Shown: in pieces, positions 47,848 through 53,964 of the stretch
Layout: each line of letters opens with the position of its first letter
How positions within the stretch are numbered: position 1 is the stretch's first letter
From: an uncultured Bacteroidales bacterium
GTDB taxonomy: Bacteria; Bacteroidota; Bacteroidia; Bacteroidales; Muribaculaceae
Assembly (NCBI GenBank): GCA_902779125.1
Contig: CACZAC010000003.1
Location: forward strand, 1-64,000
Direction of reading: 5' to 3'
Length of the DNA stretch: 64,000 nt
The notes under the pieces: model-generated
Told to the model about the DNA's origin: nothing
The model's input: the letters and a program-made list of their open reading frames with translations, nothing else
Databases searched by the model: none
Translations under genes and position numbers: made by a program

Positions 47848-50301
47848 CTATTCCAAGTCCACCACGGTGATGCCTGCTCCGCCAAACTGTACGTGCTCAT
47901 CACGATAGGACTTCACGCCATTAACTGTGTGCAGATACTCTCGGATGGCCACTTTCAACGCTCCGGTACCCGTGCCGTGCAGGATGCGCACTCGCTGGGC
48001 ATTGAACTGGATGGCGTCGTCTATGAAATAGGTAATGGCTTGCAGTGCTTCATCGGCACGCATGCCACGCACATCAATATCGGGCTTGAAATTGAGTTGT
48101 CTAGTCCTTATTTCATCGGCCGTGGAACGTCCCAGCGACTCAGTTTTTGGAGCCTTTTCCTTGCGCATGGTGCGTTCAACTTTGTCGGCCTCAATACGTG
48201 TCTTAATGTTACCGAACGCCACGAGGGCATATTTCTCATCGATGCTGATGAGGGTGCCCACGGTTGCCGTTCCCTTCAACACCACATTGTCACCGGCCTG
48301 TAGAGGGCGGTCTTTAGCAATAGGCTGTTGAGGCTTTTTCTTGGGTTGCTTGCGTCGCGGTTTATCCTTCGGTGTCAGTTCCTTGAGACGTGAGGGATCC
48401 TCAGGTTCCTCAGCATTGAGTCGCTGCTTGAATTCATCAAGTTGACGCCGCAACTCCTTTGTGCGCTCCTTTTCGGCCTGTTGCTGACGTATTTCCTTGA
48501 TGGTACGCTCTATCTGGGCATTGCTGCCGCGCAGGATTTCCTGTGCCTCGGCACGGGCATCGTGAATAATCTGGCGATGCTCGGCGCGGATGCTGTCCAA
48601 GCGTTCGTCGTAATCGGCAATCATCTGGTCGAGACGTTTTTCCTTGGCGCGCACATCCTGGCGCTTGTTCTCCCAATACCGGCGGTCACGCACGATATCA
48701 AGCAGATACTTGTCCATATTGATGTAATCGCTGCCCACAATCTCGCTCGCCTTGTCGATGACCTGCTGCGGCAAACCTGTCTTGCGGGCAATCTCGATGG
48801 CAAACGAACTGCCAGGATAACCCATCGACAGTTGGAACAGCGGTTGCATCCGCTGGCGGTCATAGAGCATGGCACCATTAACCACGCCAGGGGCTTCTTC
48901 GGCAAAGTGCTTGAGGTTCTGATAATGGGTTGTTACCACACCCATCACCTGATGCTCATTGAGCTGTTCAAGAATCGACTGGGCAATGGCGCCACCGATT
49001 TGGGGTTCAGTACCGCTACCCATTTCATCAATCAAAATGAGCGTCTCCTTGCCACCCTTAGTCAAGAACAGTTTCATGTTCTGCAGATGACTGCTGTAGG
49101 TACTCAAGTCATTCTCGATACTCTGCTGGTCGCCGATATCGATGAAGATGTCACGGAAGATACCGATATGCGAATTATCACGCAAGGTGGGCAACAAACC
49201 GCACTGAACCATATACTGCACAACACCTACCGTCTTGAGGCACACCGACTTGCCACCGGCATTGGGACCAGAGATGACAAGGATGCGGTCTTGCTTGTTC
49301 AGGGCGATGTTCAGGGGGACCACCTGCTTGCCCTGAGCACGCAACGAGAGCATCAAGGCGGGATGGATGGCGTTGTACCACTCAATGACGGGTTTGCGGT
49401 CCACATGGCACATCTGGGCGCCTACGTCTTGGGCAAACAATGCTTTAGCGCGGATGAAATCCAATTGTCCCAAGGTATCGAGTACGCCTGCCAAATCATC
49501 AAGGTGCGGACGAATGAGGTCGGTCACCTCAGTAAGGATACGGATAATCTCGCGGGCAATCTCGGCCTCGGTCTCGCGGATACGGTTATTGGCCTCGACA
49601 ATGGCGTCAGGCTCAATGAATACGGTCTTACCTGTGGCGCTCTCGTCATGGACGATGCCATGGAGTTTGCGCTTGTTCATGGCGCTCACGGGCAGCACCA
49701 ACCTGCCATCACGCAACGAGGGCTGAACATCGTTCTCGAGGATACCGTCCTGCTTGCCCTGGGCGATAATGCGTCGCAGTGTGCCGTTGATGCTACTGGT
49801 CACGCGGGCGATGGCTGTGCGCAATTCCTGCAATCGTGGCGAGGCGGTATCCTTGATGTTGCCTGCCTTATCAAGCACATGGCCGATAGCAGCGCTCAAC
49901 TCGGGGAACGATTGCATACCAGTAGTGAGTTCACGCAGGCGCGGATAAGCGCTCTTGTCCTCGCCGTCAGTGGTAAAGAAACGCACCACCTGGGTCACTG
50001 TCACCAACAGGCGCTGTAAATCAAACAAATGCTCGGCCGAAAGGAATGTGCCTGGTGTCGCTACCTCCTTGAAGACCACACGCAGGTCAAAATAATAACT
50101 CAGCGGGAAGTCCTTGCCCGTCTGGACGATAGACAGGAACTCATTGGTTTCTTCAAGCCAGCGCACCACCTCATCACGACGCGTGGAAAAACGCAGGCGC
50201 GGCACGTTGGCAGCGCCCAACGCGCTGACGCAGTGACGCTCCAGTTCTCGTCTCACGGCATCAAAGCCAATCTTGCTCTCAAAATTTGAGGGATAAATCA
50301 T
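47848..50301 (-). CDS. mutS2: MutS2 (RqcU-type) with Smr domain
   Basis: 817 residues. ATPase Walker A ISGPNAGGKSVCLKTVG, signature STYSSHLQNMK and Walker B TLILIDEMGSGTEPQIG; long coiled-coil region (about 520-640, rich in E/K/R/Q) and C-terminal Smr nuclease domain DVRGMRADEALQAI with HGTGTGALK. MutS2 acts on collided ribosomes and in suppressing recombination. Its start codon lies within a 17-bp direct repeat that bounds an inserted element, and its probable original promoter is now 2.2 kb away at 52517. Confidence 0.97.
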   Translation of the reverse strand: MIYPSNFESKIGFDAVRRELERHCVSALGAANVPRLRFSTRRDEVVRWLEETNEFLSIVQTGKDFPLSYYFDLRVVFKEVATPGTFLSAEHLFDLQRLLVTVTQVVRFFTTDGEDKSAYPRLRELTTGMQSFPELSAAIGHVLDKAGNIKDTASPRLQELRTAIARVTSSINGTLRRIIAQGKQDGILENDVQPSLRDGRLVLPVSAMNKRKLHGIVHDESATGKTVFIEPDAIVEANNRIRETEAEIAREIIRILTEVTDLIRPHLDDLAGVLDTLGQLDFIRAKALFAQDVGAQMCHVDRKPVIEWYNAIHPALMLSLRAQGKQVVPLNIALNKQDRILVISGPNAGGKSVCLKTVGVVQYMVQCGLLPTLRDNSHIGIFRDIFIDIGDQQSIENDLSTYSSHLQNMKLFLTKGGKETLILIDEMGSGTEPQIGGAIAQSILEQLNEHQVMGVVTTHYQNLKHFAEEAPGVVNGAMLYDRQRMQPLFQLSMGYPGSSFAIEIARKTGLPQQVIDKASEIVGSDYINMDKYLLDIVRDRRYWENKRQDVRAKEKRLDQMIADYDERLDSIRAEHRQIIHDARAEAQEILRGSNAQIERTIKEIRQQQAEKERTKELRRQLDEFKQRLNAEEPEDPSRLKELTPKDKPRRKQPKKKPQQPIAKDRPLQAGDNVVLKGTATVGTLISIDEKYALVAFGNIKTRIEADKVERTMRKEKAPKTESLGRSTADEIRTRQLNFKPDIDVRGMRADEALQAITYFIDDAIQFNAQRVRILHGTGTGALKVAIREYLHTVNGVKSYRDEHVQFGGAGITVVDLE
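50285..50301. repeat. Attachment-site-like direct repeat at the mutS2 start
   Basis: TTTGAGGGATAAATCAT, identical over 17 nt to 52496-52512. Includes the mutS2 start codon and codons 2-6 on the minus strand. Identity ends sharply on both sides. An 8-bp inverted repeat (50301-50318) lies immediately inside the element. Confidence 0.8.
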
Positions 50302-50331
50302 TTTATGATGTCATAAAATAATGAAATTCAA

Positions 50332-50610
50332 TCACATAAGCCAAAATGATAAAATCATTAGCAACAAAATAGCAACAAAACCGTCAAAAAAGGAGCAATT
50401 TCTACTGCTGTTGCCCTGCAAAATTAAAGAATATTTCCGAAACACACAAATGCGCCGCCTCTTATTAGAAAGAAGCAGCACAAGCGACGAAAGTTTGGCT
50501 ACCTCAGTGGAACTTTTTACAGGAGCTTTCATCATCTCCTCGTATTCCGAGTAGATGGTCATGTCGCGCTTGCGGCGACGCTCTTGCTGTTTTGTTCTCA
50601 GTACTTCCAT
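50332..50610 (-). pseudogene. Remnant of a small element-encoded protein
   Basis: A 92-codon frame. Residues 1-40 (EVLRTKQQERRRKRDMTIYSEYEEMM, then KAPVKSSTEVAKL) resemble the N-terminus of short basic proteins seen in Bacteroidales mobile elements. After about residue 40 the sequence turns hydrophobic and unrelated, as if a frameshift or deletion had replaced the C-terminal half. It may not be expressed. Called as a remnant on pattern memory only. Confidence 0.35.
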
Positions 50611-50763
50611 AATTCTTAAAAATTGTTACGCTTATTATTTTACTTATTAGTTTATTTCCGTTTTTACTTATTATTTCATAACTTTGCAAATAATATCAGC
50701 GGCAAAAATAATATAATATTTCATAAATAATATTATATTAAAATTTTAATATTTTTTAAGAAT

Positions 50764-51189
50764 GTGGAATTATCTAAACGTATAGCAAAAGTCGTAGAAT
50801 TATCAGGCATGACGATACCACAATTCTCTACCTATGTTGGGTTCAAGACACCACAGGCGGTAAGGGAACTGTTGAAGGGAAATACCAAATCATTGTCCTA
50901 TCAAGCAAAGGAAAAGATAGCTGCAGCTTTCCCTAACATCAACATCGGCTGGCTGATAACAGGCGAGGGAGAAATGCTTAAAAACTCCGATAATACGATA
51001 TCTGACGACGATAACAACATCACCGTCGGAGGTGACGCGACAATCAGCAACTGCAGCAGTGAGCAAGCACTGATGCTGACGCTGAAAGAGTTGAGCGAAA
51101 TGCGCAAGCTATTGGCCGAGGCACTGGACGCCAACAAGGAACAAGCCCAGCGTTTCCTCGGCATAATTGAGAGTTTAACCAATAAATAA
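50764..51189 (+). CDS. XRE-type transcriptional regulator (phage repressor-like)
   Basis: 141 residues from a GTG start (the ATG two bases earlier is out of frame). N-terminal helix-turn-helix (KRIAKVVELSGMTIPQFSTYVGFKTPQAVRELLKG) ends with NINIGWLITGEGEML, a segment characteristic of Bacteroidales phage/ICE repressors. The C-terminal third is a helix with ELSEMRKLLAEALDANKEQ. Preceded by about 150 nt of very AT-rich DNA. Confidence 0.82.
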   Translation: MELSKRIAKVVELSGMTIPQFSTYVGFKTPQAVRELLKGNTKSLSYQAKEKIAAAFPNINIGWLITGEGEMLKNSDNTISDDDNNITVGGDATISNCSSEQALMLTLKELSEMRKLLAEALDANKEQAQRFLGIIESLTNK

Positions 51190-51198
51190 TATCATATT

Positions 51199-51747
51199 AT
51201 GAACATCAAAGGTGTTATTATATCTGCTACCCGTTGTTTTGGGGCGGCAAAATGCTATAGTCAGACTACGGCCACAACAAAAAAATTACTGATTTTACCA
51301 TTCTTTGCGGTGTTGATGATTGCCGCCTTATTGTTCGGATGCACATCAAATAATGCGTCGCCTGTTGACCAAGCAAACAAGTTGTTGGCAAAACGCAACC
51401 TGATGTCGGTACAGCACCTTGACAGCGTTTTCGGCTATAAGGACGCACACAGTTGTTTGATGGCAGCTCACAACCTGCAGTGGAAAGCGGACAGCATTTT
51501 GGAGTATCATCAGTCAAGCCATACCTTGCTCACGCCTGAGGAGAAAAAAGAGGCATTAGAACTTGGCCAAACTGTTTACAACCTTAAAATGGAAGCTGCT
51601 AAGAATGAATTGCGGCACGGACTTGCAAAGGACAAAAAGGAGTTTTTGGGGTATTCCGTTTTCATTGCCGATAGCGTGACAGGGTCAATGATGAATGTCT
51701 ATTTCGATAAGGAGGTCACAAAGATTTCAGCCATAGAAAGGAAATAA
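51199..51747 (+). CDS. Small lipoprotein of the inserted element
   Basis: 182 residues. After a 26-residue N-terminal stretch, a hydrophobic segment LLILPFFAVLMIAALLFGC supplies a lipobox (Cys about 48), then a soluble helical domain. If an internal start is used the signal would be normal in length; no ATG is well placed for this. 9 nt after the XRE gene, so cotranscribed. No recognisable family. Confidence 0.6.
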   Translation: MNIKGVIISATRCFGAAKCYSQTTATTKKLLILPFFAVLMIAALLFGCTSNNASPVDQANKLLAKRNLMSVQHLDSVFGYKDAHSCLMAAHNLQWKADSILEYHQSSHTLLTPEEKKEALELGQTVYNLKMEAAKNELRHGLAKDKKEFLGYSVFIADSVTGSMMNVYFDKEVTKISAIERK

Positions 51748-51758
51748 TCAGTTATTTT

Positions 51759-52175
51759 TTGCGAATACCGCGCACAATAAACGATAACATCCCTTCCTTA
51801 GTGAATATATCCCAAGTATTCATAACGCGAGAAGCCGCTAGAGACAATTTTCAGAAGACGAACAAAAGATTACGTGAGATAGTGAACTACAAGACGCGAG
51901 GCAAGCACAAGGAGTTTGCCGAGCTTGTGGTCTGGAAGCCACAATACCTTGCCAAGCTGTTACACGGCAGCGACTTCGGCCTTAAGCCTGTGTCGGCTGT
52001 ACTGAAAGCCCTGCCCAAGATTAACGCCCGCTGGCTGCTGCGCGGCGAGGGGCAGATGCTCACTGACGGAAACATGGGCGACCTTTACAGGGGAACGCTC
52101 AACCACATACAGGCGGTGCTCGACCTTGAGCTCCTCAAAAAGACGCTTGGCGCATACCGCCTCGGCCAGTTGTAA
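51759..52175 (+). CDS. Second XRE/phage-repressor-like protein, start uncertain
   Basis: The frame has no ATG; a TTG at 51759 or an internal GTG would be needed. Recognisable from about residue 37: RLREIVNYKTRGKHKEFAELVVWKPQYLAKLLHG, a helix-turn-helix, then INARWLLRGEGQML, matching the hallmark of the regulator at 50764. The last 10-15 residues run into sequence that is the antisense of an integrase stub, suggesting a deletion junction near 52125-52140. It may be a pseudogene. Confidence 0.5.
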   Translation: MRIPRTINDNIPSLVNISQVFITREAARDNFQKTNKRLREIVNYKTRGKHKEFAELVVWKPQYLAKLLHGSDFGLKPVSAVLKALPKINARWLLRGEGQMLTDGNMGDLYRGTLNHIQAVLDLELLKKTLGAYRLGQL

Positions 52176-52337
52176 GTTCTGATGGTTTGCCTCCTTGTCC
52201 ATGCGCGTGTGCTCTGGGCGCAGGTAAAGGTGCAGGTATTCGTATGTCCTGCGCCCGCGCTGATATATGTCAAGGCACAATGACACGTTACCTGACGGCA
52301 TTTTCCTCTGCCGCAACACGACCGACTGTTTGCTCAT
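52140..52337 (-). pseudogene. N-terminal fragment of a tyrosine recombinase/integrase
   Basis: Residues 1-66 read from 52337 (SVVLRQRKMPSGNVSLCLDI, then RTYEYLHLYL and NLQLAEAVCAKR) match the arm-binding N-terminus of Bacteroidales phage and transposon integrases. The frame continues open to 51960, but the following residues are only the antisense of the XRE gene; core-binding and catalytic domains (R...HxxR...Y) are absent. It has its own -7 element (minus-strand TACCTTTG at 52373-52366). Confidence 0.65.
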
Positions 52338-52495
52338 ATCCGAAAGAAAAATTGATTATCGGTGGCAAAGGTAGTCAATCAGTAACAAAAAAGCAACTTA
52401 CGGTGGGATAATCGTTGGGTAATCCACCAACGCGGAAAAGACGCTCAGCCCTTTATTGGATGATTTTCGTTACCATAGCATTAAATAAAGGCCGT

Positions 52496-52512
52496 TTTGA
52501 GGGATAAATCAT
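52496..52512. repeat. Attachment-site-like direct repeat, right copy
   Basis: TTTGAGGGATAAATCAT, identical to 50285-50301. Immediately to its right is a minus-strand -7 element, so joining the two repeats by excision would place this promoter directly in front of mutS2. Confidence 0.8.
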
Positions 52513-52516
52513 AGCA

Positions 52517-52548
52517 CAAAGGTAGTCATTTTTCGTCATTCAACGAAA
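52517..52548 (-). promoter_or_regulatory. Probable ancestral mutS2 promoter
   Basis: Minus strand: TTTC (52548-52545), 20-nt spacer, TACCTTTG (52524-52517). It now reads into the inserted element; before insertion it would have ended about 5 nt from the mutS2 start codon, implying a very short or absent leader. Confidence 0.6.
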
Positions 52549-52562
52549 TATTTGTACCTTTG
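52531..52562 (+). promoter_or_regulatory. Divergent promoter, plus strand
   Basis: TTTC (52531-52534), 20-nt spacer, TACCTTTG (52555-52562). Mirrors the minus-strand promoter at 52517-52548 within a 46-bp near-palindrome. Could give a long-leader transcript of the C1B peptidase gene. Confidence 0.55.
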
Positions 52563-52694
52563 CAGCATCATCAATCAAATCTTATCTATCTGATTCATGA
52601 GAAAACAGTGCTTCGTGTCTGTCTATTACAGGCAAAAACGGGGCACTTTTTTATTTTTTCCCACCATAATAAGTGCTATTCAAAAAAGAATAAC

Positions 52695-52758: not shown

Positions 52759-53964
52759 ATGAAGAAATTCTTATTCTTATTGCTCGCATCGGCTGTCTGC
52801 ATCAATGTTATGGCCGATGACAAGGTTGTCATCCCCGACAGCACCGGTTTCAAGTTCACCGACACCAAGGTTATCAAGCACACCCCCGTCAAGGACCAGA
52901 ACAAGTCCGGTACGTGCTGGTGCTACTCCACCAACTCCTTCTTCGAGAACGAGATCCTGCGCATCACCGGCAAGGAGGTTCACCTGAGCGAAGGCTTTGT
53001 GGTTAACCACTGCTACTATGACAAGGCCATCAAGTACATCCGCATGGATGGCACCATCAACTTCGCTGAAGGTGGCGCTGCCGAGGACGTACCCTACGTT
53101 TGGCGCACCTATGGTATGGTTCCCAACGATGTGTACACCGGCATGACCTACGGTGACAAGAAGTTCGACACCAGTGAGTTGACCTCCCTGCTGAAAGGTT
53201 ACGTCGGCACCATCAACAAGAACAGCCGCGGCAAGCTCACTCCTGCCTGGATGGACGGCCTGAAGGGCATCCTCGACGGCTACATGGGCAAGATGCCCGA
53301 GACCTTCGTCTATGAGGGCAAGACCTACACCCCGCAGACCTGGGCTGCCAGCCTCGGCCTGAACATGGACGACTATGTACCCATTGCATCGTTCACCCAC
53401 CATCCCTACTATCAGCCCTTCATCCTTGAGGTGGCAGACAACTGGTTGTGGTCAACCTACCAGAACGTGCCCATCGACGAGCTGCTCGAGATTGCCAACT
53501 ATGCTATCGACAACGGCTACAGCATCGCTTGGGGTTCTGACGTGAGCGAGAAAGGCTTCAAGTGGCGCAATGGTTATGCCATCCTGCCCATCAAGAAGGA
53601 GGTTCCCGATGCCGCAGGTACCGACATGGCACGCTGGGCTCAGCTGAGCGACAAGGACCGCGAGGCCGAGTTGTGGGACATCAAGGGCCCGGTTAAGGAG
53701 CAGTGGGTAACCCCTGAGGAGCGTCAGCAGATGTTTGACAACAAGGAGACCACCGATGACCACGGTATGGTAATCATGGGTAAGGCTGTTGACCAGGAAG
53801 GCAACAAGTACTTCAAGGTACAGAACAGCTGGGACACCAACCAGCTCTATGAAGGCTACTTCTATTGCAGCGAGGCCTTCTTCCGTGCCAAGACTTTGAA
53901 CATCCTCGTTCACAAGGATGCCATCCCCGCCAAGATTGCCAAGAAGATGGGCATCAAGAAGTAA
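52759..53964 (+). CDS. Secreted C1B (bleomycin hydrolase/PepC-like) cysteine peptidase
   Basis: 401 residues from the ATG at 52759, chosen because it begins the signal peptide MKKFLFLLLASAVCINVMAD. Papain-fold active site: Q47 and C53 (KDQNKSGTCWCYS), later H in TTDDHGMVIMG and N in VQNSWDTN. The C1B family has this arrangement with a large insertion before the His. Cytoplasmic in most bacteria, but the signal peptide places this one in the periplasm or beyond, as is common in Bacteroidales. Own promoter and terminator. Confidence 0.92.
   Translation: MKKFLFLLLASAVCINVMADDKVVIPDSTGFKFTDTKVIKHTPVKDQNKSGTCWCYSTNSFFENEILRITGKEVHLSEGFVVNHCYYDKAIKYIRMDGTINFAEGGAAEDVPYVWRTYGMVPNDVYTGMTYGDKKFDTSELTSLLKGYVGTINKNSRGKLTPAWMDGLKGILDGYMGKMPETFVYEGKTYTPQTWAASLGLNMDDYVPIASFTHHPYYQPFILEVADNWLWSTYQNVPIDELLEIANYAIDNGYSIAWGSDVSEKGFKWRNGYAILPIKKEVPDAAGTDMARWAQLSDKDREAELWDIKGPVKEQWVTPEERQQMFDNKETTDDHGMVIMGKAVDQEGNKYFKVQNSWDTNQLYEGYFYCSEAFFRAKTLNILVHKDAIPAKIAKKMGIKK

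Follow-up and report, generated by a model that had tools for sequence, protein, structure and literature searches.

The 64,000-nucleotide stretch of DNA analysed here (the window; contig CACZAC010000003.1 of an uncultured Bacteroidales bacterium of the family Muribaculaceae) carries a 2.2-kb element inserted at the start of mutS2, a DNA-repair gene of the MutS family. The element is very probably the relic of a temperate phage that integrated site-specifically at the mutS2 start and was later deleted internally, with mutS2 probably read from a promoter in the phage end. What the DNA itself shows is that an insertion took place, that relatives have the site empty, that each end carries an arm-type motif, that the genes come from a phage and that the integrase is truncated. 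The relic adds a new case of viral insertion at the start of a MutS-family DNA-repair gene, and the choice of site is the unusual part of the finding.

The element is bounded by two exact direct copies of TTTGAGGGATAAATCAT, at 50285-50301 on the mutS2 side and at 52496-52512 on the integrase/promoter side, with a spacing of 2211 bp. Identity ends sharply at both edges of the repeat, and the adjoining bases differ on each side; an earlier note, made from the sequence alone, had reported both the repeats and their edges, correctly. These two copies are the only matches with up to two mismatches in the whole 3.35-Mb assembly. With up to three mismatches the window holds three matches versus 0.20 expected from shuffling, the third of which (26359, three mismatches) was judged unrelated. 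The ATG of mutS2 occupies 50301-50299 on the minus strand, and the left copy, read on that strand, comprises codons 1-5 and two bases of codon 6, a slight trimming of the codons 1-6 given in the note. The gene itself (47848-50301, minus strand) is a complete frame of 817 aa, within the length range of its relatives, and was identified by a TIGR01069 profile match of 823 bits. Just outside the right copy, four bases from the ATG which that copy contains, stands a minus-strand TACCTTTG box (52524-52517). This is the promoter that the note had placed there, and it is the original mutS2 promoter box as judged from relatives, now 2.2 kb away from the reading frame.

The uninterrupted site was sought in 101 genomes of the genus (its own included), all of which gave a match to mutS2 at E <= 0.001, some via a paralogue only. 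The mutS2 loci compared numbered 89, that is, 29 relatives fetched first, all with a located start, and 60 further upstream stretches; L269 was the sole locus in which no start was found by pattern. A TAnnTTTG box lies no more than 16 nt from the mutS2 ATG in 36 of the 37 close-clade loci, including all 29 first fetched, and is missing from this interval in the window's own locus. Among more distant loci the box adjoins the ATG in just 23 of 51, and the promoter argument is limited to the close clade. The closest relative by mutS2 (G082, 95%) has the uninterrupted site: the window flanks joined via one core align to it over 1592 bp at 90%, the flanks aligned separately overlap there by 17 bp, and it has a single core copy. 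No match to the element was found in the 15 kb of the G082 locus compared. The 17-mer, with up to two mismatches, is present in 72 of the 101 genus genomes, own included, and two exact copies exist in the own genome only. The whole promoter-mutS2 junction which the earlier note had proposed to look for is thus found in relatives, and the pattern that it had named as contrary, element-free relatives with the 17 bp twice, was not seen; in 29 of 29 relative loci fetched first the sequence stands once, with the promoter joined to mutS2.

Two genomes needed separate consideration. G016 has a second 17-mer (two mismatches), located on the mutS2 contig at a distance of 54 kb from the gene; it was taken as chance, the promoter-mutS2 junction of this genome being whole. 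G060 (L252) is the single close-clade locus without a promoter box beside the ATG; it was not counted as an occupied site, with one 17-mer only within two mismatches in the genome. Here (L252, 811-1482) mutS2 is separated from the C1-peptidase gene by a lipoprotein-like gene, which takes the place of the usual promoter beside the ATG. In the window (52517-52564 and 52777-53964), the mutS2 promoter and the plus-strand promoter of this papain-like C1 peptidase gene (PF03051) are adjacent and divergent, and the element is inserted beside the promoter region common to both genes.

A chance repeat or a faulty assembly join would make the whole arrangement spurious, and a draft genome of 97 contigs leaves room for such errors. 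Nevertheless, the edges of the repeat coincide with the mutS2 start and with the layout of phage att sites, and the joined flanks match G082, which makes this explanation scarcely credible.

The 2.2 kb between the repeats form a lysogeny-control module of a temperate phage, composed of two repressors, a lipoprotein and a tyrosine integrase Arm domain, all of which match phage contigs. Repressor 1 (50764-51189, plus strand, 141 aa) matches the PHROG repressors phrog_8 (3.6e-8) and phrog_4 (1.5e-7) and is 63% identical to its counterpart in L141 over aa 1-73. It is followed by the lipoprotein-like gene (51199-51747, plus strand, 182 aa; the label was given by eye), which is about 40% identical to that of L115, a contig in which the lipoprotein adjoins repressor 2 and an integrase is also present. 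Repressor 2 (51759-52175, plus strand; 72% to L106, aa 21-124) is truncated, its 3' part being fused to the integrase gene. The open reading frame (ORF) at 52337-51960 matches Arm-DNA-bind_5 (PF17293) with E 2.8e-11 and, in Pfam, no catalytic domain; it retains the Arm domain alone, versus PF17293, PF13102 and PF00589 in the full-length integrase of the related prophage in genome G108. The surviving domain (52337-52134, minus strand, about 68 codons; 74% to L092) lies at the element edge, 158 bp from the core, and the remainder of the gene is deleted. The repressor-like genes and the integrase stub listed in the earlier note are present.

The remaining gene and the homology limits point to where DNA has been lost. 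At the far end stand the first 40 codons of a divergent phage gene (50491-50610, minus strand; 55% identity to L093, L099, L100 and L106, aa 1-40 only); homology of this ORF, which starts at 50610, ends near 50490, where a deletion junction is placed. Homology of the integrase mostly ends at codon 68 (~52133) and that of repressor 2 mostly at aa 124 (~52130), although individual alignments extend further, to integrase codon 87 in L092 and to repressor 2 aa 137-138 in L099, L100 and L187. The junction between the two genes is placed near 52.13 kb, and any place from ~52.08 to ~52.17 kb is possible. The order integrase, repressor 2, repressor 1, divergent gene recurs, as separate matches, in L116, L117, L146, L157 and L175; four further contigs (L103, L105, L106, L107), in which the repressor 1 match falls on the repressor 2 gene, were left out of this count. 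No structural phage genes are left in the 2.2 kb. These genes mark the element as a decayed prophage whose interior and integrase catalytic part have been lost, and it is called a remnant rather than a prophage because a complete catalytic domain was not found. The note's site-specific element with its att site at the mutS2 start stands as far as the empty site and the arm-type motif at both ends are concerned; what survives is a decayed prophage and not a working element.

Conjugative elements of Bacteroidota also use tyrosine integrases, and the insert could accordingly descend from an integrative conjugative or mobilizable element instead of a phage. We regard this as very improbable, since IMG/VR viral contigs contain matches to both repressors, the lipoprotein and the divergent gene, and the relative in G108 has portal, major head and tail proteins. 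None of the five ORFs of the surviving 2.2 kb matched relaxase or conjugation genes in PHROGs or Pfam.

The G108 prophage, from the same bacterial family as the window genome, served as a guide to the ends of the element. It spans 52,030 bp and lies at the 3' end of mnmE, where its 15-bp core is repeated; its PHROG matches include the portal, major head and tail proteins mentioned above. Its genes run repressor, small gene, repressor, integrase, and it shares with the window element the repressor-repressor-integrase order and arm-type repeats inside both cores, in the form of two copies of a 21-bp sequence, one lying 64 bp and the other 133 bp inward of its core. It differs in its size of 52 kb, its full-length integrase and its use of a 3' gene end as the site, by which no promoter is displaced. 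This prophage also carries a reverse transcriptase (phrog_1423; L313 7564-8634), and its 921-aa head-morphogenesis protein (L314 6888-9653) additionally matches a PHROG annotated as Bxa ADP-ribosyl transferase.

From the G108 repeat, a G197 sequence and two sites in the window the arm-type motif AGYAACAAARWARCAAC was derived. With up to two mismatches it matches the window twice, once per end, versus 0.15 matches expected: at the far end 58 bp inside the core (50360-50376, plus strand), a site to be compared with G108, and at the integrase end 98 bp inside the core (52381-52397, plus strand), where alignment to sister phages points to the same place. Independently of the window, the motif occurs at the same stringency within 400 bp upstream of the integrase gene in 96 of 131 related loci (in the opposite orientation, 21 of 131), with no match in 675 kb of downstream control sequence. 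The 131 loci are a hand choice from 160 fetched; most of those excluded had the integrase gene close to the end of a contig. In several viral contigs two sites flank a core upstream of the integrase gene, at a distance of 189-253 bp from one another, which amounts to an attP; by arithmetic, bringing the window ends together would set its two sites 190 bp apart. We read the motif as putative arm sites of the integrase, and it offers a simple handle for delimiting, at both ends, the prophages and relics that carry this family of integrase. A direct-repeat search at seven integrase loci of relatives gave no convincing att repeat in six; G108 was later solved and G197 was not.

An insert bounded by a direct repeat could also be a transposon or insertion sequence (IS) with a 17-bp target duplication. 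However, no inverted repeat links the ends, no transposase was matched in Pfam or PHROGs, and what the insert does contain is an integrase Arm domain along with arm-type motifs, so that we give this origin hardly any credence.

The phage history which we favour would run as follows. A temperate phage with a Bacteroidota-type tyrosine integrase would have recombined at a 17-bp attB formed by the first 17 nt of mutS2. All 17 bp must already have been present in attP, given that both junctions carry the same 17-bp copy; integration would in this way have preserved the mutS2 frame and displaced the native promoter. Later internal deletions would have stripped away nearly all of the phage, including the core-binding and catalytic domains of the integrase, and the remnant would have been left fixed in place. 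The agency of the integrase, the order of these events, the use of the new promoter and the permanence of the insert are what we infer.

Transcription of mutS2 now probably starts from a promoter of Bacteroidota type within the phage end (50450-50419, minus strand). The pattern found there, TTTG-20 nt-TAATTTTG, points at mutS2, is one of seven such patterns on both strands of the 64 kb, and fits the consensus TTTG / TAnnTTTG as given in PMC7366714. An outward TAnnTTTG stands at the far end of all seven sister phages compared, on the same side and 155-170 bp from the core, which suggests that the promoter pattern may be inherited rather than accidental. A terminator-like hairpin just before the pattern (50451-50482, minus strand) is a weak feature, with four such sites in the region versus 3.1 expected from shuffling. 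Read-through from the phage-end promoter to mutS2 is possible on this layout. In relatives, mutS2 mRNA may be leaderless or nearly so, the box being so near the ATG; leaders shorter than 10 nt are given as ~3.7% in B. thetaiotaomicron (PMC7366714).

Several observations weigh against this account of the phage and its promoter. The host record is a draft assembly of 97 contigs, and the junctions are known from the assembly alone. The arm pattern was written after the window sites had been seen, and shuffling likewise produced a pair of matches in 2 of 100 cases. Sister phages have, by eye, a hairpin and a T-run between promoter and arm; the window hairpin between the phage-end promoter and mutS2 is weak (-6.5 kcal/mol, z 0.30); shuffled sequences fold just as well, and no claim of termination or read-through is based on it. 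The sister clade uses another core, ATGTTTAACCCTAAARAAC, and not the mutS2 start. Finally, the searches described below turned up no intact phage that carries this 17-bp attP.

The closest analogue among described systems comes from the streptococcal SpyCI islands, which sit at the 5' end of mutL (PMC3430984). The SpyCIM5 island of S. pyogenes Manfredo is trapped, its integrase gene lacks 128 bp through a deletion, and mutL is driven from a promoter within the integrase pseudogene (PMC3430984). Like SpyCIM5 as described there, the window element is phage-like, lies at the 5' end of a mismatch-repair-family gene, has an integrase disabled by deletion and seems trapped. SpyCIM5 differs in its target (mutL versus mutS2), host (Streptococcus versus Bacteroidales) and other genes; its excision and expression were measured according to that report, whereas the window element is known from sequence alone, and the promoter within the insert, which in SpyCIM5 drives mutL, is here only proposed. 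As far as can be told, the element resembles a trapped SpyCI island but is not a SpyCI. In emm4 strains, mutL transcripts are reported to be present though SpyCIM4, degraded or not, did not excise (PMC8115907). Growth-dependent excision of the window element is not expected, because its integrase is truncated.

The same comparison bears on the idea of a still-mobile small satellite, whose excision would depend on an integrase supplied in trans by another phage and which would toggle mutS2 between two promoters. Both cores and both arm-type motifs are retained, and an integrase supplied in trans did excise SpyCIM5 in S. pyogenes Manfredo (PMC3430984). On the other hand, a search of the own genome for further matches to this Arm domain gave none (E <= 0.001), the genes of the element are truncated phage genes, and the element was not found elsewhere: of 397 genomes of the family, 20 besides the own gave matches, all of them short, with a maximum of 125 bp. 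A mobile satellite is therefore unlikely. Within Bacteroidales, phage BV01 integrates in the tspO promoter of Bacteroides vulgatus (PMC10413269); as described, it is like the relic a prophage separating a gene from its promoter, and differs in the gene and in being a whole prophage, the likeness resting on description and not on sequence. If mutS2 expression has been rewired, phages would have come to occupy MutS/MutL-family genes independently in Bacteroidales, as in this relic, and in streptococci, as with SpyCI.

A counterpart at the same site, which the earlier note had proposed to look for, did not appear: no second element at mutS2 was seen in the 101 genus genomes, the 160 integrase loci or two IMG/VR pattern scans. 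The integrase loci were the best 80 of 195 from viral contigs and the best 80 of 255 from genomes, and the core, with up to three mismatches, was found in 0 of 80 and 0 of 80 of them, respectively. The IMG/VR scan with the 17-mer (W at one place) returned six contigs, none with a tblastn match to integrase, repressors, lipoprotein or mutS2 in the compared stretches. The scan with core plus arm returned one, without a match to the same element proteins or mutS2, and this was taken as chance. Strict peptide patterns for mutS2 and repressor 1 gave no confirmed relative among viral contigs. No phage at mutS2 was seen in the literature searched, which leaves out most subscription journals.

Related integrases choose other places. 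Among 19 related integrase loci in family genomes, eight lie beside mnmE, four beside prfC, one beside a birA-like gene and six are unassigned; one mnmE, one prfC and the birA-like gene were confirmed by profile and the remaining loci named by eye. All 13 assigned loci sit at the 3' end of their gene, where no promoter is displaced, and the start of mutS2 contrasts with them. The integrase stub nests among eight phage integrases (support 0.93, ~68 residues). Seven contigs of its group (L092, L095, L097, L098, L101, L104 and L108, from IMG/VR) share the core ATGTTTAACCCTAAARAAC; L141 has a near variant, and in L094 the core falls outside the record. These sister contigs have the closest integrases, att DNA on the integrase side that is homologous to and aligns with that of the window, and the outward TAnnTTTG, but their core matches an intergenic element of the genus, not mutS2. 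The possibility that their core is the mutS2 start of another host was rejected: with TTYGA after the core it matched 2 of 297 genomes (family of a Prevotella record), both with two mismatches. The phage behind the relic thus seems to have had its core fitted to mutS2 instead of the intergenic element.

A bolder extension would have the integrase clade moving its att core from the intergenic element to the mutS2 start, with lysogeny swapping the native mutS2 promoter for the phage-end one and the relic being a frozen state of this switch, tolerated as the phage promoter drives mutS2. We put it forward tentatively and with more doubt than confidence. An intact phage of such a kind, if this were true, would place MutS2 under lysogenic control.

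The intergenic element deserves mention in its own right. The shortened sister core TGTTTAACCCTAAARAAC, with up to one mismatch, occurs in 31 of the 101 genus genomes, the own genome having a copy of the sister core at G000:C40:22166. Ten of eleven inspected TGTTTAACCCTAAARAAC places belong to one conserved intergenic element, L353 being the exception. The middle of this element is the sister-phage core and hence probably their attB. No Rfam match was obtained for the own locus; the element may be an undescribed structured RNA. It measures ~75-85 nt (L332 ~1440-1560 in the own genome, near G000:C40:22166; also L348-L352, L354-L357) and is conserved in many congeners, in some of which it apparently occurs twice, with two core matches each in G052, G061, G065 and G073.

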